IMG/VR virus record: IMGVR_UViG_3300050821_013813
Coordinates: 1-41,101 of that record
Length of the DNA stretch: 41,101 nucleotides
Strand: one strand, 5' to 3'
Source: a virus
Positions within the stretch are counted from its first letter, which is position 1. Each line of letters opens with the position of its first letter. A model generated the notes under the pieces. That model did not search any database. It was not told the origin of the DNA and saw nothing but the letters and a program-made list of their open reading frames with translations. The position numbers and the translations under genes were made by a program. Positions 622-39,972 of this stretch are shown piece after piece.

Positions 622-803
622 ATCTGCGGCTGCCCACCAAAGAGCGACATCACCATCTGCCAGGCTTTCTCGTTCATGGCCGGCAATCCCTCAGCTAGAC
701 GCCCTTGGAGCCCGTCATCTTTGTGATCGATATTGACCACCGTGCCGGTCATGCTGCTCCAGAAATAGCCTGACTGACTCTGGATTTTATCTTCCTCACT
801 CAT
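618..803 (-). CDS. Hypothetical protein, 61 aa
   Basis: A small acidic/neutral protein (MSEEDKIQSQSGYFWSSM...) ending in LFGGQPQI. It is linked by ATGA overlaps to the putative small terminase upstream (800-803) and to the 48-aa gene downstream (618-621). No domain is recognised. Its position in the terS-like cluster suggests a packaging or DNA-modification accessory, which is inference only. Confidence 0.55.
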   Translation of the reverse strand: MSEEDKIQSQSGYFWSSMTGTVVNIDHKDDGLQGRLAEGLPAMNEKAWQMVMSLFGGQPQI

Positions 804-1201
804 GGCGAGTGGTGCTCCCCGTTACCGTTGCCGCCGGCCTCAAGTAGCGCCTCGCGCCGGAGGAGGGCGTGCATCTCGCTCAGGCGTCGTTTGGTCTCGT
901 CGGTCACGGTGACCGCCGTTTGCGAGACGTTTACAACTGTCTGGGGCTCTTCCTTGAGCCCCAGATAAACCTTGCCCAGGAAGACGAGTAACCGCGGATC
1001 ACCCTTGATCGCGTGACGGAACATGGCGCTGCGCAATCGCACGTGACACTTTTTGGTCCCCCGCTTAAGGATCGGACCACAACGCCTCTTTAGCGTCATC
1101 TCACCGATGCCGAGCTCGGCGGCGATCTCTTCCTGCGAGCAGCCGATCGAGGCGAGTGCCTCGACCTTAGCGAAATCAATCGGGACTTTGGGCCGGCCCA
1201 T
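800..1201 (-). CDS. Probable terminase small subunit (HTH protein), 133 aa
   Basis: Residues 11-40 form a clear helix-turn-helix (AKVEALASIGCSQEEIAAEL, then GIGEMTLKRR), as in phage small terminases and Hin-like HTH proteins. Residues 60-82 (MFRHAIKGDPRLLVFLGK...) match the conserved small-terminase pattern in which an ALxxxAxxGxxxxxxxxL helix follows the DNA-binding domain. It would recognise pac/cos DNA and load the large subunit. terL lies at 38384-39796, so on a circular map this gene is just upstream of it, separated by the short rightward gene block. It follows the glycosyltransferase gene by 5 bases. A plain HTH regulator is the alternative. Confidence 0.6.
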   Translation of the reverse strand: MGRPKVPIDFAKVEALASIGCSQEEIAAELGIGEMTLKRRCGPILKRGTKKCHVRLRSAMFRHAIKGDPRLLVFLGKVYLGLKEEPQTVVNVSQTAVTVTDETKRRLSEMHALLRREALLEAGGNGNGEHHSP

Positions 1202-1206
1202 AAAAA

Positions 1207-2073
1207 TTAGCGTGTCAACTTTTCGAGCGTCATACCGTAGTTATCAACGCTGTCGACGATCTCTACGCCTTCTTTACGCACAAGCTTAAGGTGATCAAAC
1301 TTCCGATAATTAGCGTGATGGTGTATGCGCCCGAATCGGCGAGTTAAGCGGCAGATGTCGGGATGCATCGCGACGATCATCTGCGATTTTACAGCTGTAC
1401 CTTTCGCATAGAGCTCGTCCGTATTGCCGCCTTTCATCTTCATTGTCGGCCCTTTGTCTTGCAAAAAAGCTCCGAACGAGACAGTACACCACCCAGCTTT
1501 GAGCATGCGGATCGAAAGGTCTGTATCCTCATTGTACCGACCTCTCCATCGCATCTGGACATCGTTCCGTATCAGAATACACGAATAGATCCTAGTGTTG
1601 AGCACGAATGGAGGTACCTTTTCCTTGCGTTTGACAAATTCATCGTAGGTCGGTCCGCCCTGTGCTACGTTGCTATATCGGTTGCAAAAATCTTCCATAC
1701 ATCTAAAGATCGTCCCGTCAGCAACCTTAAATTTCAGATTCTGACTTAGGCGCATAAATACTCTGATGTTGTCGTCAACGATCCAATGCCAAGAAGCGCC
1801 TTCCGATATAGCGTGATCCCAGACGAAATTCCGCGCTGGTCCCGAACCTTTGGACTGGCCTTCTGCTAGTACACAGCACGGATCATAGTCAGCTTGATAC
1901 TGCTTCTCGAGCACGAGAATTTTAGCCGGATCGATCACTTGGGAATAATTGCCGTATTCTTGCTCTTCGACGACAATACGGTACGGCACCTGCATTCGCT
2001 CGAATGCTTTGCTCGTCATCCGACTTTCCCAGCGTCCTTTCGAGATAATATAGACTGGATGCTTCGGATTCAT
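1207..2073 (-). CDS. TET/JBP-associated-type DNA glycosyltransferase (TAGT family), 288 aa
   Basis: The sequence shows the motif series I associate with the phage TET-associated glycosyltransferase family: YIISKGRW (8-15), ARNFVWDH (80-87), WIVDDN (97-102, the likely metal/sugar-nucleotide DxD equivalent), RGRYNEDTD (177-185), KGGNTDELY (214-222) and RIHHH (249-253). Members are predicted GT-A enzymes that add sugars to oxidised 5-methylpyrimidines in phage DNA. Its ATG overlaps the stop of the ParB-like gene (2070-2073), so the two are co-translated. No TET/JBP dioxygenase or cytosine-C5 methylase is recognisable in the window, so the acceptor base is unknown. Family assignment is strong; the target is inference. 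Confidence 0.8.
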   Translation of the reverse strand: MNPKHPVYIISKGRWESRMTSKAFERMQVPYRIVVEEQEYGNYSQVIDPAKILVLEKQYQADYDPCCVLAEGQSKGSGPARNFVWDHAISEGASWHWIVDDNIRVFMRLSQNLKFKVADGTIFRCMEDFCNRYSNVAQGGPTYDEFVKRKEKVPPFVLNTRIYSCILIRNDVQMRWRGRYNEDTDLSIRMLKAGWCTVSFGAFLQDKGPTMKMKGGNTDELYAKGTAVKSQMIVAMHPDICRLTRRFGRIHHHANYRKFDHLKLVRKEGVEIVDSVDNYGMTLEKLTR

Positions 2074-2690
2074 TCTGTTGACCTATAAGCCCTGTCAGCG
2101 TAATGCTCGCTCTCGGGTTTTGGGAACCAGATAAATCGCGTCTTTTCAGTAAGAGCCATCTGGAGTTTGGCTACGAACTCATCTACTGCGCCCTGATCTT
2201 TAAAGTGGACTACGATCGATCGGAAAGCCGTTTTATCCTGCTGATCAAATTCCGGCATCCCGAGCCATTCTTGGTTCGGATCATCACCGCTAAGCGCTAA
2301 AAACGAAGCCAATTCGCGCTCGTCGAAGCCGGTAAACGCGAGCTCGAGGTCAAGATCAGCTAGTTCGAGCTTTAAAGCTTCAAAATCCCAGTCAGAATCG
2401 AGGGTCAACCGGTTATCGGCGATGCGATAAGCGCGTTTCTGGGCGCTTGAAAGCCCCGGGATGCGTAAACATGGCACCTGAGGCATCAAAAGCGCCCTGG
2501 CGGCCAGCAGGCGGCCGTGTCCGGCCAATACGGCGTTCTCTTCGTCGACCAAAATCGGGGTGGTCCAGCCGAACTCTTTTATGGAAGCGACCAGCTTAGC
2601 GACGTTGGCCTCGGGATGCGTTCGGGGGTTGCGCGGATAAGGCGCGACTGAATCGATGGGGAGAAACTCAACTACCTGGTTCTCTTTCAT
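2070..2690 (-). CDS. ParB/Srx-fold nuclease-like protein, 206 aa
   Basis: Residues 10-100 carry the ParB N-terminal fold: PIDSVAPYPRNPRTHP, PILVDE, VLAGHGRLLAARAL (54-67, the GxxRxxA nucleotide-binding loop) and RIADNRL (89-95). There is no KorB-type HTH after it, so this is not a complete partition ParB. The C-terminal part (from about 140, EWLGMPEFDQQDKTAFRSI...) is a conserved tail seen in phage ParB-domain proteins. It heads the leftward operon with the DNA glycosyltransferase and terS-like gene. Proteins of this type co-occur with base-modification genes, so a role in DNA modification or its targeting is more likely than segregation. Confidence 0.8.
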   Translation of the reverse strand: MKENQVVEFLPIDSVAPYPRNPRTHPEANVAKLVASIKEFGWTTPILVDEENAVLAGHGRLLAARALLMPQVPCLRIPGLSSAQKRAYRIADNRLTLDSDWDFEALKLELADLDLELAFTGFDERELASFLALSGDDPNQEWLGMPEFDQQDKTAFRSIVVHFKDQGAVDEFVAKLQMALTEKTRFIWFPKPESEHYADRAYRSTE

Positions 2691-4582: not shown

Positions 4583-4906
4583 TTAAACGCGTTCCTGGTG
4601 GCGCCTGGACGCGGCAATGGGGATGTCTGGGGTTGGTTCAACCAGATAATGATAAAATTCTATCATCGGTTCGAGTTGGCGCTTAAATTTAATGCAAGTC
4701 TCTGCCGAGAGAAATTCCCTGGGCTTGGTTTTGAAGATGATACAAATCCGAAGAGCCAGTTTCACGCTCATTGGCAAGAGGCCGTTTTCAATTTGCTGGA
4801 TAGTTACCCCACTGACTCCGATTCGAGCACCAAAAGCCGGCTGACTCAATCCGAGCGAAGAACGGAAATTGCGCAACGGATGATAATAAGTCGGAGGCCG
4901 TGGCAT
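4583..4906 (-). CDS. XRE-family HTH regulator, 107 aa (paralogue of 38041-38376)
   Basis: A Cro/CI-type HTH lies at about residues 14-50 (FRSSLGLSQPAFGARIGVSG, then VTIQQIENGL), followed by a helical body (KLALRICIIFKTKPREFLSA). The start MPRPPTYYHPLR is chosen because it matches the paralogue at 38041. The two are nearly identical in protein over residues 1-85 and clearly alignable at DNA level, so this is a recent duplication. The C-terminal 18 residues (VEPTPDIPIAASR...) differ completely from the paralogue. It lies in an early leftward cluster; the function is presumably transcriptional control. Confidence 0.75.
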   Translation of the reverse strand: MPRPPTYYHPLRNFRSSLGLSQPAFGARIGVSGVTIQQIENGLLPMSVKLALRICIIFKTKPREFLSAETCIKFKRQLEPMIEFYHYLVEPTPDIPIAASRRHQERV

Positions 4907-4910
4907 AGTT

Positions 4911-5075
4911 TCATAGACGTAATTTGATCTCCAGGGCTTGGAGCATGGCAAGCCTGGCCCGGGTTGCCGGCGTCGATTTGGCGTTGCCGGCCAGGAGCCG
5001 GTAATACTCCAGGTGCGCTTTCATGAGCCCGAGCAGGTAACCGGTTTCGTCAGGCGAGAGTTCAACGCTTTTCAC
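4911..5075 (-). CDS. Hypothetical protein, 54 aa
   Basis: Starts at GTG 5075 (MKSVELSPDETGYLLGLMKA), which overlaps the stop of the upstream coiled-coil gene as GTGA. The longer frame to 5204 is a shadow of that gene. It is a small helical protein with the pattern DETGYLLGLMKAHLEYYRLL followed by TRARLAMLQALEIKL, a common shape among short phage early proteins. No function is known. Confidence 0.6.
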   Translation of the reverse strand: MKSVELSPDETGYLLGLMKAHLEYYRLLAGNAKSTPATRARLAMLQALEIKLRL

Positions 5076-8141: not shown

Positions 8142-9425
8142 TTAAGCAACCTTCCAAAGGATGATCTCTCGCGTTAGAACCAAACAGCGTTTGTTTGCCT
8201 TCGCCCATTCGACCATTTGCGCGTTGCACTGCTGGCTTTCGTAAGGAACACTGAACCGCATTTCGATCAGCAATTTCGACAATTTGACCAGCCGCAACAT
8301 GTCCCGAACGTGGTCCGTGAACTGGCGCTCCGGCGCATTCCATTGCGTTGGTTGAATAATTAGCGCGATGTAGGCATCGCTGAGTTTTCTGGCAAAGCTA
8401 GTAACCAGCGAAACTAGCCTTTTATTAAATTCCGGCAATTCCATGTTGCCAAAATCTGTCGGATCCTTGCTGTATTGGCCTTTGGCTTGATGCCAGTAAG
8501 GGGGATCGAGATAAACTAGCTTGACGTCTTTCCAATTGTGCAGTTTCGGCAGACCATCGGTCACATCATGCAACCTGATATCTTTTTCGCGCTCCGGCTC
8601 AATCTTACGGTCACTTACCCAATAGCGGCGCATTCGTTTCTTACACAAGTCGATCGTCGAACCGCCGCCAGCGAACGGATCAACCACGATGTCGAACGGT
8701 TTCGTGTAGAGATACAGCAGGTTATCGAGCCAACGGACCTCGCTATTGCCGAAGTGATTGGAACCATTGGACTTCTTTTGCTGCTTCCAGACGTTATAAA
8801 GCGGCACCTCAAACCCATCCTCTTGATGCAAAGCAGTAGGTTTTAGTGATTTTTGCAAATCTGCATTTTCCACTAAAACCTCGCTAACCGTATGCTGATC
8901 ACACCCGCACTCCTCGGCGATCTCTTCCTGGGTCCGGCAGGCGAGCCAAAGTTGGAAGATCCGTTTATTGCGCGCTGCTTTGCTATCCTTATCAATCCGA
9001 CCCAACCAATCATAGATTGTTCTTTCGCTGACAGATAAGATTTTCGCTAGATGCGCTTTTTTCCCTTCTCTTTCTTTAGCTGGCGTGCTGTTATAAATCT
9101 TGCGCGCTAAGTCAGCTTTCTCATCTGGGCTTAGTTGAAGCCCATGCTTTGCATTACGGACAATCGCCAGCTCTAAAATGTGCGCATCACTCTTTGTCTT
9201 AGTGACCTTTACGCGAATTGTCGGAACCCCTGCTTTTTTATGCGCCAGCCAGCGGTGCTTGCCATCAATTGCCTCATTATGCTGGTTAATTTCGATCGGC
9301 GGCAGAACATCCAGATCAGCCGCATATTTTTGTACAGTCAACACATCGATTTCGTGCCGCGGATAAACATCCTCACGGAACACAACGCTCTCTATCGCAA
9401 GTTCGTGCGTGCCATTTGATTCCAT
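8142..9425 (-). CDS. ParB-HTH-DNA methyltransferase fusion, 427 aa
   Basis: Residues 10-95 are a ParB-like domain with DGKHRWLAH (54-62). Two HTH segments follow, one at about 122-144 (KKAHLAKILSVSERTIYDWL) and one at 162-184 (RTQEEIAEECGCDQHTVSEV). The C-terminal half is an N4-cytosine/N6-adenine methylase with the SAM motif DPFAGGGST (249-257) and the catalytic DPPYW (307-311). The SAM motif precedes DPPY, the alpha/gamma-like order rather than the beta order. No C5-cytosine motif is present. It modifies phage DNA, probably as protection or as a regulator. It precedes the nuclease-like gene with no gap. Confidence 0.85.
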   Translation of the reverse strand: MESNGTHELAIESVVFREDVYPRHEIDVLTVQKYAADLDVLPPIEINQHNEAIDGKHRWLAHKKAGVPTIRVKVTKTKSDAHILELAIVRNAKHGLQLSPDEKADLARKIYNSTPAKEREGKKAHLAKILSVSERTIYDWLGRIDKDSKAARNKRIFQLWLACRTQEEIAEECGCDQHTVSEVLVENADLQKSLKPTALHQEDGFEVPLYNVWKQQKKSNGSNHFGNSEVRWLDNLLYLYTKPFDIVVDPFAGGGSTIDLCKKRMRRYWVSDRKIEPEREKDIRLHDVTDGLPKLHNWKDVKLVYLDPPYWHQAKGQYSKDPTDFGNMELPEFNKRLVSLVTSFARKLSDAYIALIIQPTQWNAPERQFTDHVRDMLRLVKLSKLLIEMRFSVPYESQQCNAQMVEWAKANKRCLVLTREIILWKVA

Positions 9426-17764: not shown

Positions 17765-20413
17765 TTAGGCAATTCCTTTTACTGTAAGATGCAGATTAAT
17801 GATATTTCCACTAGCTGGGAAAAATTTGAGCGCTGTCACAGGACCCGCAACACCAAGCGACCCGAAATAATTGTACATTTGTTCAAAAGATCCAGTGTTA
17901 TAAAAATAACCTGAATTAACAAACCAGGAAGGTCTCTCTCCTAAACCTGGATGAAGGCCCAATCTATTTATTCCCAAAGGTAAAGCGGTCGCAAGCCATC
18001 CTAAAAAACCAGCGGTAGCAGATCCATTATAAGCCGCAACTACCGCGGTCGTTGAACTATTATTCATTTGCAAATTTATATAGCCGGATGTAATCCAGGT
18101 ATTACCTCCGTCTGTCGATAACTGAAAATTAAAAGCGATATCAGATGCAGAGCATTGCCCGGCAGCAAATTCGAATTCAAATAGTCGGAAACCTGATGGA
18201 AGCAAAACAGTTCCACTAGCAGTAGCGCTACTGATATCTTGCGTACCAAGGACAAGTATTCGTTGTTTTCCAAATGTCCGCCAGTTAGTGCCGTCACAAA
18301 TGAGCAGGCACTCCTGTTGTGGAAGTAAGGGAATCGAAGCCGCCCCGTCAATGGTTCCAGCCGCTGGCTGCAAGGTGATGGTTCCGGTCGTTCCGCTGAT
18401 CCCCATGTCGTTGCGGACGTTGAAACACAATCCCGCTGAAGCCGCAGGAAGGGTCAACGTCCAATTCCCACCTGAACAAATGATGTATTTGTTTCGATCG
18501 GCCAGAGTCAGCGTATAAGCTGCCGTTTTGCTGACGAATCCATTGATGCCGCCAGGCGTATAAATAAGACTGTCACTACCAAGCTTGGATTGGTTGCCGG
18601 CATCGGTACTTACGCCACCGCCGCCGCTCACTGCGACAAGTTTTCCACCAGTAACCTTAATTGTGGTATTATCAACCGGCGGACATAACCCTTGAGCCGC
18701 AGCGCTGGCCAATGGGATCGGGTCTGAGCCCCCATTATGCGTAGTTTGATGGGTCGTTGGCGTCCGCGCATTGGTCAGTTGCGGATCATCGCCGGAAACG
18801 GTTTGTGCGTGCGTTGTGGCCGCTACGCCCGCCGCAGTGCCTTGAACCAAGATGAGCGAATCCGTCCCGACCGTCGCTTTGTTGTTGGCGTTCGCGCTGA
18901 TGGACGATGGGCCAGCAGGACCTTGTGGCCCAGTCGCGCCAGTAGTGCCGGTCGCACCTTGAGGCCCAGTCGCACCCTGCGGCCCGGTAGCACCCGCAGC
19001 GCCCTGTGGTCCAGTTGCGCCCGTCGCGCCTTGCGCAGCCATCAGATTCCAGTGGGTCGTGTCGATTGCGGGGTCATTGCCCGTATTGGCGACCGTACAG
19101 ATATAGCTTTGATTCGTGCGATTAACGGCATCGTTGACGGCGTAAGCCGTTGAACCTGACCACGTCCCGCGCCAAGTGATCGATACCCCAGCTGGCCCTG
19201 TGGCCCCTGTCGCGCCTGCCGGACCCGTAGGGCCAGTTGCTCCTTGCGGTCCTTGCGCCCCGGTCGCCCCAGTGTTGCCTATTGGGCCTTGCGGACCAGT
19301 TGCGCCAGTGTTACCGATCGGCCCTTGAGCGCCCGTCGCACCAGTCGCCCCCTGCGGCCCAGTCGCGCCGGTCGCACCAGTGTTACCTTGTATCCCCTGC
19401 AATCCCTGCGGCCCTTGCGCCCCTTGCGGTCCAGTAGCGCCGGGAGGTCCTTGGATCGGTCCGACATTGACCCATGCAGTCCCATTCCAGACATAACCGT
19501 CACCGTTGCTCTGAACAACCCACATATCGCCCTGCGTGTTGCCGGTCATCGGCAAATCGGCCGGAGTCGCAACGGTGCCTTTTAAAAGAAGACCTGTCCC
19601 TGGTGCCCCGGTGGCCCCCTGAATACCTTGAACCCCTTGCGCTCCTTGTGGCCCAGCCGGTCCAGGCGGTCCTTGTGCCCCAGGCGGGCCTTGACCGCCG
19701 GTTGCCCCAGTCCCACCTTGCGGACCTTGCGGACCCTGTAATCCTTGCGCACCAGTTTGTCCCTGTGGCCCGGCCGGCCCCGTTAACCCAGTTCCACCCG
19801 TAGCACCAGTCGGCCCCGGCGGCCCTAAAGGACCCTGCGGACCAGTTGTCCCGGTCAACCCGGTTGCACCAGTCGCCCCCTGCGGCCCAGTCGGCCCCGT
19901 CGCGCCCTGCGGCCCAGTTGAGCCAGTCAGTCCGGTTGCACCAATCGGCCCAGTCGGCCCCATCGGTCCTGTCCCGCCAGCCAGGGCGATAAGTTGCCAA
20001 TGCGCGCCACCATCGGTTACCGGGTTGTTACCCGTATTGGCCACAATACAAACGTAAGAATTGCCGCCTTGCGCAACCGTGTCGTAGGGCACATAGGCAA
20101 AGGTGCTGATCCAGTTTCCGCGCCACGTGTAACCCTGACCCGTTGCCCCAGGTGGACCGGTAGCTCCCGCCGGTCCCTGTGAACCAGTTGGGCCGGTTAA
20201 GCCTTGTGGACCAGTAGGACCAGTTAGCCCCTGCGTTCCAGTAGCACCCGCAGATCCTTGTGGCCCCGACGGTCCCGCAATCCCCTGATGCCCGTAATTG
20301 ACATCGATCTGGGACGACGAATAGAGCGCGACGTCGATACTCGAGGAAGGCAAAAGCGTTACCGCGATCGGTGTCGGCGCCAGGTCAACCGTGCAATCAA
20401 TCGAAATGCTCAT
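17765..20413 (-). CDS. Collagen-like tail fibre, 882 aa
   Basis: Long Gly-X-Y stretches ([13 protein letters not shown] type) make up most of residues 40-540 and should form a triple helix. Inserted modules are two aromatic carbohydrate-binding-like domains ([20 protein letters not shown] and [20 protein letters not shown], each ending in a W) and one [15 protein letters not shown] module. The C-terminal 300 residues are a beta-rich knob region. It is a trimeric receptor-binding fibre. The GC-rich repetitive DNA at 18.9-20.3 kb invites slippage and phase variation in length. Confidence 0.85.
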
Positions 20414-34293: not shown

Positions 34294-34391
34294 GCTCGTT
34301 TCCGTTTCGCCGCAAACCAAAGAACAAGCTGGTAATTGAGCTTTTCCAGAGCTAATTCCAGGGCTCGGCCACGTTTTAAGTTTCGTTTCAT
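34290..34391 (-). CDS. Basic micro-protein, 33 aa
   Basis: MKRNLKRGRALELALEKLNY, then QLVLWFAAKRKRA: a short amphipathic basic helix. ATGA overlaps join it both to the portal stop (34388-34391) and to the next start (34290-34293), so it is translated or at least serves coupling. The function is unknown. Confidence 0.5.
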   Translation of the reverse strand: MKRNLKRGRALELALEKLNYQLVLWFAAKRKRA

Positions 34392-36355
34392 CGCTTTGGC
34401 TTACTAACAAACCGCCCCGTCTCCGGGTGATGATGCGGGTTGCCGCTCTTGGTCTGATGGAAAATGTTTGTCCCGCCATATACCGTCTTGTACTCGTTGC
34501 TGCATCGGCAATTGGGGTGATGCGGCGGATTCATCGAGTAGCCCAAATACTCCTCATCGATCGGGATCCAACCCTCTTCACAGATATCTTTGCAGGCCTG
34601 GCAAACCTTATTGTCCTCCATGGTCTGACTATGTTTGCACATCAGCCCGACCTCAGGCATCGGTTCCCCGCGCTTGACGCCAACCTTGCGCTTAGGCGGC
34701 TTTGCCGGCGGTGCCGGGATAAACCGACCGGTCTCCGGGTGCCGATGTTCGTGGCGCGCCTCCACATAATTCTTTCCCGGCAGACCTGGAACACCTTTTT
34801 CTCCTTGCGGACATCCATGATGTTCATGGCGCGCCTCAATTAAACCGAAGTCGTCGGGATCATCGTCATCGTCCGGGTCGCCGTTACTGGCCCCAACCCG
34901 CTCAACGATGTTCGGCTTAAGCGCTGCCGGTTGATTCCCGTTCGGCGCGTGTTCGGGCTGCGGCTTAACGCCATCGGGTTCCGGCTGCACACCAAATGGC
35001 GATTGCTTGGGCATTGCCTGTAAGGGTGTCGCCGGCGGCACATAAACATCATCGCCTTTATCCGGCTTGGTAAACTCGATCCGTTCATAGAGCTCCTTGT
35101 TCAAGACCGGCACCTGCATCTGGTTAAACAAGATATTGTAGGCCTGCGCCAGGTTAAACAAATCGACTGGATCCTTAACGACCGGTGCCAAGGTCGGCAA
35201 TTCATCGATCGATCCGAAGTTGTACTGAATAATGCCCGGAATCAGCTGGGTACTAAGCACCTTGGAAACGTAGCGTGAAGCCGCCTCCAAAATTTCATCC
35301 ATGATTTTGTGGTGCACCATCCCGAGCGCCCGGTTACCGCCACTCTCGCGCACCTCGGTCGTTAGCGTCTGGCCCAGTAACATGATGTCGCAGACCTTGT
35401 CGGCCTCATCGATAAGCCGTTCCTGCGGCATGTGCGCGCCCGCGCCGCCGGCTGTCCCTAACACCTCGACCTTGGTATTGACCGGGTAAACGCCCCAGGT
35501 CGCCGTGGCGCTATTACGCATCATCTGGACCAGCTTCTGGTAAACCACATCGTCCCCGGGCTGATAGTAAGCAATCCGTTGCGGGATCCCGAACAGCTGC
35601 GCATAGCTCATGAACCATTCCAGCCCGAACCGCGACGCTAGCCACCACGCCGTTAGGCACCGCATAGGCGAGGTAAACACCGGGTGATTGGCGTGGCTCT
35701 GCTTCACGCAGACCAGGAATTTGTACGGCGGAAAATCGACCAACTGCGTGCCGCCTAGCATCCCGCTCGGATTAAGCATCAAGCGGTCGATGTCGTCGAG
35801 TACGTAAGGATAGCGGTAGTAACGCGCCGGTAGCCACCGAGTACACTGCGGCATGATCCCGCCATCGCGAGCCTCCCAGTAGACTTCCATCACGGTGAAC
35901 CCGGCAATCAGCGAGTCGACAATGTCCTCAAGCGTCTGCTCAAAGTCGTGCTCCTGACGCGCGACATCCCCGTGCATCCCGAATAGTGCATTCTCAACAA
36001 AATCGGCTTTTTCCTGGGCGCTACTCGTCGGCTCCTCGTCGCCCTCGGTGAACGGATGGATTGCGTATTCCATCGAGCTGACTGCCTGCTTGAGCTTGCC
36101 AAGGTTAGTCTGGAGCCGCGGCCAGGTATCGACCATCAAGCTCCAGAGCTGATCCTGCCAGTAAAGGTCGCCGACAATAGCCGAGTAAAGGATACCCTCG
36201 ACGTCACTGGGAAACAGGCGTCGTTTAAGCTCCCGAAGCAAACGGTCCTGGACTTCGACGTTGATCATCGGCTCGGTCACAGGGGTATTGGCCGTGTCCG
36301 GTATCGGCGGCGTACCGGGCACATTCAGGTTTAGCACCTCTGGGTTCTCAGCCAT
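34388..36355 (-). CDS. Portal protein (Mu gp29/DUF935-like) with C-terminal minor-head-like extension, 655 aa
   Basis: Residues 30-430 are the portal (LKRRLFPSDVEGILYSAIVG, GDLYWQDQLWSLMVDTWPRL, GFTVMEVYWEARDGGIMPQC, YQLFGIPQRIAYYQPGDDVV-type region, GQTLTTEVRESGGNRALGMV). After a low-complexity acidic linker (DPDDDDDPDD) come two ARHEH repeats, HPETGRF twice, a collagen-like GEKGVPGLPG bit and CxxC pairs (VCQACKDIC). It ends with GYSMNPPHHPNCRC, the end motif of Mu gpF-type minor head proteins. Portal and minor-head tail are thus fused. It is the DNA entry and exit channel of the capsid. Confidence 0.8.
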   Translation of the reverse strand: MAENPEVLNLNVPGTPPIPDTANTPVTEPMINVEVQDRLLRELKRRLFPSDVEGILYSAIVGDLYWQDQLWSLMVDTWPRLQTNLGKLKQAVSSMEYAIHPFTEGDEEPTSSAQEKADFVENALFGMHGDVARQEHDFEQTLEDIVDSLIAGFTVMEVYWEARDGGIMPQCTRWLPARYYRYPYVLDDIDRLMLNPSGMLGGTQLVDFPPYKFLVCVKQSHANHPVFTSPMRCLTAWWLASRFGLEWFMSYAQLFGIPQRIAYYQPGDDVVYQKLVQMMRNSATATWGVYPVNTKVEVLGTAGGAGAHMPQERLIDEADKVCDIMLLGQTLTTEVRESGGNRALGMVHHKIMDEILEAASRYVSKVLSTQLIPGIIQYNFGSIDELPTLAPVVKDPVDLFNLAQAYNILFNQMQVPVLNKELYERIEFTKPDKGDDVYVPPATPLQAMPKQSPFGVQPEPDGVKPQPEHAPNGNQPAALKPNIVERVGASNGDPDDDDDPDDFGLIEARHEHHGCPQGEKGVPGLPGKNYVEARHEHRHPETGRFIPAPPAKPPKRKVGVKRGEPMPEVGLMCKHSQTMEDNKVCQACKDICEEGWIPIDEEYLGYSMNPPHHPNCRCSNEYKTVYGGTNIFHQTKSGNPHHHPETGRFVSKPKR

Positions 36356-38040: not shown

Positions 38041-38376
38041 TTATTCCTCCTCGCCTTGGAAGGTGACCGGCTCAAGGCGTTGCCCCGGCTCGTCGGTGAG
38101 TGCCTCCCCGTCCAGATAATGATAAAACTCTATCATTGGTTCGAGTTGGCGCTTAAATTTACGGCAAGTCTCTGTAGAGAGAAACTCCTTTGGTCGGGTT
38201 TTAAAGACGATACAAATGCGAAGAGCCAGTTTCACGCTCATTGGCAAGAGGCCGTTTTCAATTTGCTGGATAGTCATCCCACTGACTCCAATTCGAGCAC
38301 CAAAGGCCGGTTGACTCAATGCGAGCGAAGAGCGGAAACTGCGCAATGGATGATAATAGGTTGGAGACCGTGGCAT
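38041..38376 (-). CDS. XRE-family HTH regulator, 111 aa (paralogue of 4583-4906)
   Basis: Starts MPRSPTYYHPLRSFRSSLAL. Residues 1-85 are nearly identical to the 4583 protein, including the HTH (LSQPAFGARIGVSGMTIQQI) and KLALRICIVFKTRPKEFLST. Its last residues RLEPVTFQGEEE copy the TerL C-terminus (QLEPISFQGDEEGE), and the DNA of the two ends is similar too. It lies seven bases after terL. It is probably a mobile or duplicated regulator cassette inserted at the terL 3' end. Confidence 0.75.
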   Translation of the reverse strand: MPRSPTYYHPLRSFRSSLALSQPAFGARIGVSGMTIQQIENGLLPMSVKLALRICIVFKTRPKEFLSTETCRKFKRQLEPMIEFYHYLDGEALTDEPGQRLEPVTFQGEEE

Positions 38377-38383
38377 AATAGCT

Positions 38384-39796
38384 TTACTCGCCCTCCTCAT
38401 CGCCCTGGAAACTGATCGGCTCAAGCTGTCGCCCGACGTTAAATTCGTTGTGCGGCAGGTAAATGCCCGCTAACTGTTCCCGGGTCACCCCGCCCAGCCC
38501 GCGGCAGTACAGCGCGCCAAAGATCGCATCCGCACGGTCCGGCGACTTGAGCCCGCGAGCCGCCATCTTGTCTTTCGACTCAGCCATCAGCCGCATTTTG
38601 CTGTCGTAATCGCGCCGGCGCGTGGTCGCCTGCCGAAAGAAAATCGCGTCATCCGGCAGGATGATTTCCCTCTTTAAGATTCGTTTGGCGCATGAATACC
38701 AAATCTCGCTGCCCCGATTGCAATAGTGATCCTCGTCAGTTGCCGGTGCGCCGTTGTTAACCGCCGTAATCCGCCAACCCATTTCGGCCAAGTAAGAAAT
38801 CATCACTGTGCCCAGCCCACCTTCATCGCCGTGAATCTCTGCCGGCACTAAACGCATCCTCTGAAATTCAGTGATGAAATCCTTACATGCCCGGATCGGG
38901 TCGGTATCGCGCCAGCACCGAATTAGGTCGACCTTGTTGCCATCGGCAATGGCAATCACGTTCTCATCGCCACCGGCCGCAAAGTCGCAGAAGGCCGCAC
39001 GGCTCGCTGGCTTGTGTTCAATCTGAGCCTCCAGACACGCGCGTAATGAGCCAGCCGTGATAAGCAGCCCTGGGCCGTCCTCGTCCATGAACTCGCTGAA
39101 ATGCATGGACCGGAAATCGGGATCGTCCTGTGGGTAAAGGCGGCAATCGCGCTCGTACTTTTCGCGTAAGTGCGGACACTGGCCGCTGGTCACCCGCCGC
39201 GTGAAATACTCCCCTGAGAGCGAATGGAAACATTCAAAGAACCGGCCAAACGGACCGCCAGCACTCGAACAGATAAACCGGTACTGCGCCGTACACCGGT
39301 CACTGGCCGTGTAAATGCCGTCATCGACCCCTTTGCCCTCGTCGATGATGTACATGCAGGGGGCCTCAGGCGTGCCGTGGTTGCCTTCCGCGCGCCGGCT
39401 ATCGTTGGTGCTGAACAGGAACGCGCGGCCGCCTTCCGGCGTATGGATCCGCATCGCAGGCCAATCCCAGCTCGGGAACCTGGCCTGATGCTCTAACAGC
39501 GCTGGCCAAAGCTGCTGCTCGAGCTGGGTCCAGCTGCCGCTTGTCACCGGGACCAACCCACGTGGGAAGTAGAACAACAGCCACAAAATTGCCGGTGCCA
39601 CGATTTTGCGGGTCTTGCCGCTGCCGTTTGCCGCGGCTAGCGCGGTCGGGATGCCCTGGCCGATCGCTTGGAGGGTCAATGCCTGCCACGGATAAAGATC
39701 CACGCCCAGAAAGGCAATGGCGAACTCCCAGGGGGATATTACGCCGGGCGGGTACTGGAAGTTGAGGTCAAGCCGGCGCGCGATCGACGTGGTCAT
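38384..39796 (-). CDS. terL: Terminase large subunit, 470 aa
   Basis: The ATPase has AANGSGKT (55-62, Walker A) and MYIIDEG (148-154, Walker B). The RNase-H-like nuclease has CDFAAGGDE (270-278), HGDEGGLG (322-329) and SPDRADAIFGA near the end. The start MTTSIARRLDL at 39796 is chosen because the previous small gene's TGA overlaps it as ATGA. It packages phage DNA into the portal. The probable small subunit is at 800-1201. Its C-terminal QLEPISFQGDEEGE is duplicated in the XRE gene. Confidence 0.95.
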   Translation of the reverse strand: MTTSIARRLDLNFQYPPGVISPWEFAIAFLGVDLYPWQALTLQAIGQGIPTALAAANGSGKTRKIVAPAILWLLFYFPRGLVPVTSGSWTQLEQQLWPALLEHQARFPSWDWPAMRIHTPEGGRAFLFSTNDSRRAEGNHGTPEAPCMYIIDEGKGVDDGIYTASDRCTAQYRFICSSAGGPFGRFFECFHSLSGEYFTRRVTSGQCPHLREKYERDCRLYPQDDPDFRSMHFSEFMDEDGPGLLITAGSLRACLEAQIEHKPASRAAFCDFAAGGDENVIAIADGNKVDLIRCWRDTDPIRACKDFITEFQRMRLVPAEIHGDEGGLGTVMISYLAEMGWRITAVNNGAPATDEDHYCNRGSEIWYSCAKRILKREIILPDDAIFFRQATTRRRDYDSKMRLMAESKDKMAARGLKSPDRADAIFGALYCRGLGGVTREQLAGIYLPHNEFNVGRQLEPISFQGDEEGE

Positions 39797-39972
39797 GGCG
39801 TTTTTTGGCTGGCGGCGTCCGTCTGTTCCAGCACTGCGCGAGCCGCAGCCTCCCAAGCTAACTGGATATGTCCGGGAGACTCCTCCCAAGGCGGCAGATC
39901 ATAGCCCTGAAAACTGGTCCAGTTGACACAAGGACAATACGCTTCGTAAGCGATTTGGCCGGGAGTTTTCAT
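39793..39972 (-). CDS. Small AYEAY-type phage protein, 59 aa
   Basis: MKTPGQIAYEAYCPCVNWTS, then GYDLPPWEESPGHIQLAWEAA, is a paralogue of 17046-17216. It is the first leftward gene and precedes terL by ATGA overlap. It starts four bases from a copy of the right-end 21-bp element, so its promoter is shared with or divergent from the rightward genes. Confidence 0.65.
   Translation of the reverse strand: MKTPGQIAYEAYCPCVNWTSFQGYDLPPWEESPGHIQLAWEAAARAVLEQTDAASQKTP

Follow-up and report, generated by a model that had tools for sequence, protein, structure and literature searches.

Phage DNA is reportedly hypermodified by systems that pair a TET/JBP enzyme with a glycosyltransferase of the TAGT family, as set out by Iyer et al. 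in 2013 and by Pyle et al. in 2024. TET represents one of the known routes to glycosylated cytosine in phages. Others pass through hydroxymethylcytosine (hmC) or 5-hydroxycytosine, both produced by enzymes of the ThyA superfamily (PMC13390438); in the 5-hydroxycytosine arabinosylation system of Mosigvirus, the acceptor derives from a 5-hodCMP synthase of this superfamily, and the sugar-modifying genes are clustered (PMC13390438). The characterized member of the TAGT family, from phage T6, acts in a TET-free pathway in which it transfers glucose onto DNA hmC that is already glucosylated (PMC13216743), and the "TET-associated" in the family name is a Pfam label only. The family itself and the counts of its solitary members are already known: TAGT occurs without an alpha- or beta-glycosyltransferase (GT) in 288 of 753 phage genomes, where its function was left open (PMC13216743).

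Here we analyze a TAGT locus in a 41,101-bp phage record (IMG/VR record IMGVR_UViG_3300050821_013813; this whole stretch is termed the window), whose main genes lie on the minus strand. Its TAGT resembles the T6/T2 beta-glucosyl-HMC-alpha-glucosyltransferase in family (PF20691/phrog_842), in its GT-A fold, and in being phage encoded, but it is paired with a ParB-like protein bearing an adaptor domain, here called MPEF, and the window shows neither the ThyA-type hydroxymethylase nor the alpha-GT that together supply the T6 enzyme with its substrate, alpha-glucosyl-hmC. The TAGT family enzyme is shared with TET/JBP-TAGT systems, whereas TET/JBP and C5-methylase are lacking from the window; probable phage DNA glycosylation and clustered sugar-modifying genes are points of likeness to Mosigvirus, from which the locus differs in having no 5-hodCMP synthase. 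We favor, if guardedly, the view that these genes form a late, ParB-recruited glycosyltransferase module that probably modifies phage DNA around packaging. A large part of the solitary TAGTs, those of Rac prophages included, now has a defined architecture: the enzyme is partnered by ParB, has its own adaptor domain, and neighbors the terminase. The link among ParB, TAGT, and terminase was not found in a literature search; the key TET-TAGT papers (Iyer 2013, Burke 2021, Pyle 2024) lay outside the scope of that search, so an earlier mention is possible.

The ParB-TAGT-terminase cluster

An earlier note on this DNA had described three coupled genes, encoding a ParB-fold protein, a TAGT, and a terminase-like protein, and both their coordinates and their coupling hold. 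In order of transcription, the cluster comprises a ParB-like gene (2690 to 2070; 206 amino acids [aa]), the TAGT gene (2073 to 1207; 288 aa), a TerS-like HTH gene (1201 to 800; 133 aa), and an open reading frame (ORF) of 61 aa (803 to 618), all on the minus strand. The ParB-like and TAGT genes overlap by 4 nucleotides (nt) (ATGA), 5 nt separate the end of the TAGT gene from the start of the TerS-like gene, and the latter overlaps the 61-aa ORF by 4 nt.

Assignment of the second gene to the TAGT family, as the note had it, is borne out by PF20691 (E 2e-41; 142.4 bits against a cutoff of 27.5; profile positions 2 to 205 of 205) and by phrog_842, which is annotated as beta-glucosyl-HMC-alpha-glucosyltransferase (E 1.9e-43). 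No Pfam family other than PF20691 matched the protein, and a search of PDB sequences returned chance matches only. Structure prediction, which the note had proposed as a check, produced an AlphaFold2 model with a GT-A fold (pLDDT 93; pTM 0.91) that matches GT-A enzymes, among them GalNAc-T2, GnT-I, cellulose synthase, and hyaluronan synthase, at VIA Z values of up to 14.7. Residues D100, D101, N102, D183, R249, and H252 are invariant in 68 homologues. By analogy with GT-A enzymes, D100-D101 (in WIVDDN; 1771 to 1776, minus strand) would form a DxD-like metal/sugar-nucleotide motif; by analogy with GT2 enzymes, N181-E182-D183 (1525 to 1533, minus strand), in which N181 and D183 are invariant and E182 is present in 95% of the 68 homologues, is the probable catalytic ED motif. 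The best fold-level matches include the protein O-glycosyltransferases GalNAc-T2 and ColGalT1, so the fold cannot decide between DNA and protein as the acceptor.

The ParB fold of the first gene product is likewise upheld, by phrog_620 (E 4e-47) and by a Foldseek match to CDP-bound ParB (6sdk; E 4e-8). Profile comparison with Spo0J gave E 2.6e-11, and the match of this protein to ParB_N (E 1e-4) falls just below the Pfam cutoff. The putative CTP-site residues of ParB_N (N21, R23, G57, R60, and N93) are conserved, but the GERR-type motif reads GHGR in this protein.

The third gene product, the terminase-like neighbor of the note, matches phrog_309 at E 2e-4 and scores 68.5 bits against a profile of the ORFs that lie between TAGT and the terminase large subunit (TerL) in related loci. 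By ORF reading and tblastn, TerL itself, on which the note is silent, was identified at 38384 to 39889 on the minus strand (Walker A, AANGSGKT; Walker B, MYIIDE); over 85%, it is 41.7% identical to TerL as annotated in Akkermansia phage Chambord. It was not matched by two profiles built from the terminases of related loci, and the possibility that TerL is missing from the record was rejected on this identification. A Mu-type portal protein (34388 to 36355, minus strand), a protease, and the major head protein are encoded downstream of TerL. TerS and TerL thus lie on the same strand at opposite ends of the record and are joined only across those ends. Circular permutation of a nearly complete phage genome is the probable explanation; in IMG/VR the record has the class linear, no end repeats were found, and we infer the joining of the ends.

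The MPEF domain and its association with TAGT

The last ~65 residues of the ParB-like protein (residues ~141 to 205; 2076 to 2270, minus strand) form a separate, non-ParB domain, passed over in the note, with the motif W.GMPEF...F...F...T.KT..IWFP. This domain has no match in Pfam, NCBIfam, or PDB sequences (chance matches only in PDB), and no C-terminal adaptor was found in plasmids. By blastp, it resembles the N-terminal extensions of the TAGTs of phages phiAS5, 1.124.O, 1.076.O, and PTm1, and profile-profile comparison with TAGT N-terminal extensions gave E 2.5e-19. A search profile built from ParB C termini alone and run over 1,368 reading frames (E ≤ 1) matched the N-terminal TAGT extensions of phiAS5, PTm1, 1.124.O, 1.076.O, and Kuja, a stand-alone MPEF domain on a small ORF directly upstream of an unannotated TAGT in henriette 12B8, and a second MPEF copy on a small ORF just after the TAGT of phiAS5 (all at E 7e-14 to 2e-7), with no further match among these reading frames. 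MPEF is thus fused to TAGT in phages of Vibrio (1.124.O and 1.076.O), Aeromonas (phiAS5), and Tenacibaculum (PTm1), and locus L079 is a natural ParB-adaptor-TAGT fusion. Because MPEF occurs on either the ParB or the TAGT chain, it constitutes a fusion link between both proteins. The TAGTs of phiAS5, 1.124.O/1.076.O, and PTm1 are 46 to 47% identical to that of the window and carry the same adaptor domain, but theirs is fused to TAGT with no ParB_N on that chain, and phiAS5 and PTm1 have much larger genomes with a ThyA-family gene. A 127-row alignment to L079, intended for joint structure prediction, was dropped because MAFFT had aligned fragments of ParB with the TAGT portion.

Among 25 viral contigs found by TAGT alone, MPEF is encoded directly upstream in 24, the remaining contig being cut at that end. 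The reciprocal search gave the same picture: in 79 of the 80 contigs found by MPEF alone (the top-ranked 80 among at least 515, with distant copies only partly covered), TAGT lies downstream, and the remaining contig ends there. These 79 loci of the top-ranked 80 include 3 fusions, 68 adjacent pairs, and 8 pairs with inserted genes. The TAGT-found and MPEF-found sets have at least 7 contigs in common. ParB_N was recognized in 20 of the 25 TAGT-found loci and in 70 of the 80 domain-found loci (top-ranked 80 among at least 515; in L096, one of the 70, ParB_N was matched at another place in the locus). Recurrence of the ParB-TAGT linkage in about 100 related loci indicates that it is not due to chance. 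In each of four whole bacterial genomes, MPEF is present as a single copy, inside the TAGT prophage. As judged from these sequence searches, MPEF is specific to TAGT. Mirror-tree codivergence with TAGT was weak for the adaptor (r about 0.16) and no stronger than for ParB_N (about 0.15).

Packaging genes and the Rac-type sister module

The terminase follows TAGT in at least 63 of 102 loci: a TerL belonging to one of two sequence groups is encoded within 5 ORFs downstream in 63, and others have a GpA-type TerL or end too soon. The TerS types in TAGT loci vary (Terminase_4, Terminase_2, and Sf6-like), and the packaging link, taken in the earlier note as a hint that packaging may read the modification, proves to be general, extending to many phages with unrelated terminases. 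A Pantoea prophage carries, in sequence, lysis genes, an MptE-like gene, a GT9-like gene, a methylase, ParB-adaptor, TAGT, TerS, and TerL (with the lysis and later genes partly assigned by eye), which would place TAGT among the late genes.

Given that the module immediately precedes the terminase genes, TAGT is probably made late, and the sugar would be added to the phage's own DNA after replication, near packaging. The ParB_N part would bring TAGT to phage DNA, and the small C-terminal domain would serve as a dedicated adaptor that docks TAGT, whether it is carried on the ParB or the TAGT chain. DNA glycosylated in this way may be hidden from restriction and other nucleases.

Not all ParB partners of TAGT carry MPEF. 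A sample of 395 genomes from a single bacterial order yielded five matches to PF20691, of which four are true TAGTs by a TAGT profile; the fifth was rejected as a different glycosyltransferase. All four true TAGTs are immediately preceded by ParB_N, which is joined to MPEF in three cases and to another C-terminal domain in one (L147). In the sister module, the adaptor at the ParB C terminus has the motif Y.P.G..P...LMEDSALVIID. Escherichia phage vB_EcoS-666R9 encodes, in order, ParB (ynaK), TAGT, TerS, and TerL, and its annotated genes RecE, RecT, RalR, Kil, and TrkG are those of the Rac prophage; in Lactobacillus phi jlb1, the order is ParB, TAGT, TerS, TerL, and portal. The sister module is also present in phiLdb, Nocardia NTR1, and the haloarchaeal virus HHTV-2, and the terminase follows TAGT in the Rac-type phage, phi jlb1, phiLdb, and NTR1. 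As in the window, ParB_N lies directly upstream of TAGT in the Rac-type pair, phi jlb1, NTR1, and HHTV-2, with the terminase next in most, but their ParB adaptors are of the other type and their TAGTs fall in a clade distant from that of the window. The ParB_N parts of the window and Rac proteins are 47% identical over 107 aa while their C-terminal adaptors differ, suggesting that a single targeting domain is combined with an adaptor matched to each clade.

At least 80% of the Rac-type ParB-TAGT pair is present in 885 of 5,426 complete E. coli genomes, which makes the question of the TAGT target testable in E. coli; DNA of a clade-I TAGT (L126) had no DNA match in E. coli genomes. An intact Rac-type ParB (ynaK)-TAGT pair lies at L151:20903-22619. 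In K-12 MG1655, only a ynaK stub of 87 aa persists (L154:1378-1641; NC_000913.3 1425377-1425640), annotated as a ParB-like nuclease; K-12 YnaK is the first part, a truncated remnant, of the Rac ParB-adaptor protein. This reduction of the K-12 Rac pair, together with the annotation of the phiLdb TAGT in two pieces, would fit the view that the ParB-TAGT pair is a decayed remnant or a moron with no current activity in the window phage. We regard this as very improbable, given that both window genes are open and translationally coupled and retain all invariant residues, and that phages only very distantly related to one another have retained the pair.

Acceptor routes and the target of the module

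Profiles for TET/JBP (PF12851), C5-methylases (PF00145), and the ThyA family (PF00303, including dCMP hydroxymethylase and 5-hodCMP synthase) matched nothing in the window at E values of up to 10, in agreement with the earlier note as regards the first two. TET/JBP was also absent from all 75 related records (25 + 50) and from four whole host genomes (Pantoea, Erwinia, Xenophilus, and an FCB-group MAG); the TAGT of the window is TET-free as the note had stated, but what had been presented as an oddity of this phage is the rule for the clade. A T-even-like route was not seen either: no ThyA-type enzyme was found in 69 metagenomic records or in the two near-complete 47-kb Vibrio phages, 1.124.O and 1.076.O, and the ThyA family is present only in four large phages, in which the gene may be a plain thymidylate synthase. 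C5-methylase (PF00145) occurs in 3 of 25 related records. Among the scanned window ORFs, which include part of the small ORFs, no alpha- or beta-GT for a first sugar was matched in Pfam. Many of the records are fragments, so each absence is weak alone; taken with the window and the Vibrio phages, the absences are consistent. If DNA is modified, the acceptor group would come from neither TET nor a ThyA-type hydroxymethylase or hydroxylase.

One version of the favored reading, not exclusive of it, is that the hydroxyl on DNA is made by a phage enzyme that the profiles missed or that is encoded outside the record. Several window ORFs of 130 to 195 aa have no family match, and the record is linear, with no end repeats found; an HxD...H pattern scan of the unknown window ORFs gave two weak matches only, and TET is absent from the two 47-kb Vibrio phages as well as from the four host genomes. 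Moreover, no upstream gene is common to more than 12 loci, so no shared acceptor-making enzyme is seen. We judge this version to be possible, though somewhat doubtful.

In keeping with the favored reading, sugar-related genes lie between or beside the ParB-TAGT pair in several loci, including an NDP-sugar epimerase (L062 and L082), an FkbM methylase (L066), class-I methylases (L064 and L126), GT9-like (L126) and GT4-like (L132) genes, a cytidylyltransferase (L114), and a radical SAM gene (L083). An accessory gene of L126 is weakly MptE-like. The MptE-like domain also occurs in flagellin-glycosylation proteins.

These MptE-like and GT9-like genes, as arranged in the Pantoea prophage, bear on the main rival to the favored reading, namely, that the sugar acceptor is a protein of the virion or the packaging machinery (capsid, portal, or terminase) and that ParB_N and the adaptor are protein-binding scaffolds. 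The late-gene position adjoining terminase and portal and the fold-level matches of TAGT to protein O-glycosyltransferases are compatible with such a target, and the missing acceptor route, with no source of a DNA hydroxyl found in searches of the window, related records, and host genomes, keeps it alive. Against it, the characterized member of the TAGT family works on DNA, ParB_N is a DNA-partition fold, and the terminase is the only further protein gene conserved alongside the pair, leading us to consider a protein target unlikely. DNA is instead the probable target, on the grounds that TAGT shares its family with the T6 enzyme (PMC13216743), that its partner has a ParB fold, and that the genes are linked to packaging. 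Were the target a protein, both the name and the assumed function of the TAGT family would be wrong for many small phages; were it DNA, the acceptor chemistry would be new.

The broadest form of the DNA reading, offered only tentatively, is a self-sufficient, packaging-coupled DNA glycosylation by ParB_N, a clade-matched adaptor, and TAGT that needs neither TET nor a premade hydroxymethyl or hydroxyl base and works through unknown acceptor chemistry in phages of Gram-negative and Gram-positive bacteria, archaeal viruses, and Rac prophages.

Two further arrangements were observed among the related loci. A GT32-like glycosyltransferase domain is fused to ParB-adaptor or TAGT at L011:4478-6004 and L105:3717-5202 (the latter being the TAGT fusion), hinting at disaccharide addition. 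A radical SAM enzyme, a candidate for unusual sugar or base chemistry, is encoded between ParB-adaptor and TAGT at L083:665-1708 and L130:1541-2584, an occurrence that extends to a contig assigned by binning to a methanogenic archaeon.

Elsewhere in the window, a single protein encoded at 8142 to 9425, absent from the note, combines an N6/N4 amino-methylase domain with HTH segments and a region weakly similar to ParB, representing a second ParB-type modification gene of the same phage, and an 882-aa tail-fiber-like protein with collagen repeats (many Gly-x-y) is encoded at 17765 to 20413. An HTH regulator gene occurs twice near the record ends, at 4583 to 4951 and 38041 to 38424, the repeated segments (4642 to 4907 and 38112 to 38377) being 90% identical over 266 bp. 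Between 39962 and 41002, four ~43-nt repeats with the core TTGAAAAAGTTGTTTAAGTTTATT, at 39962, 40154, 40423, and 40960, are possibly operators or iterons upstream of TerL.
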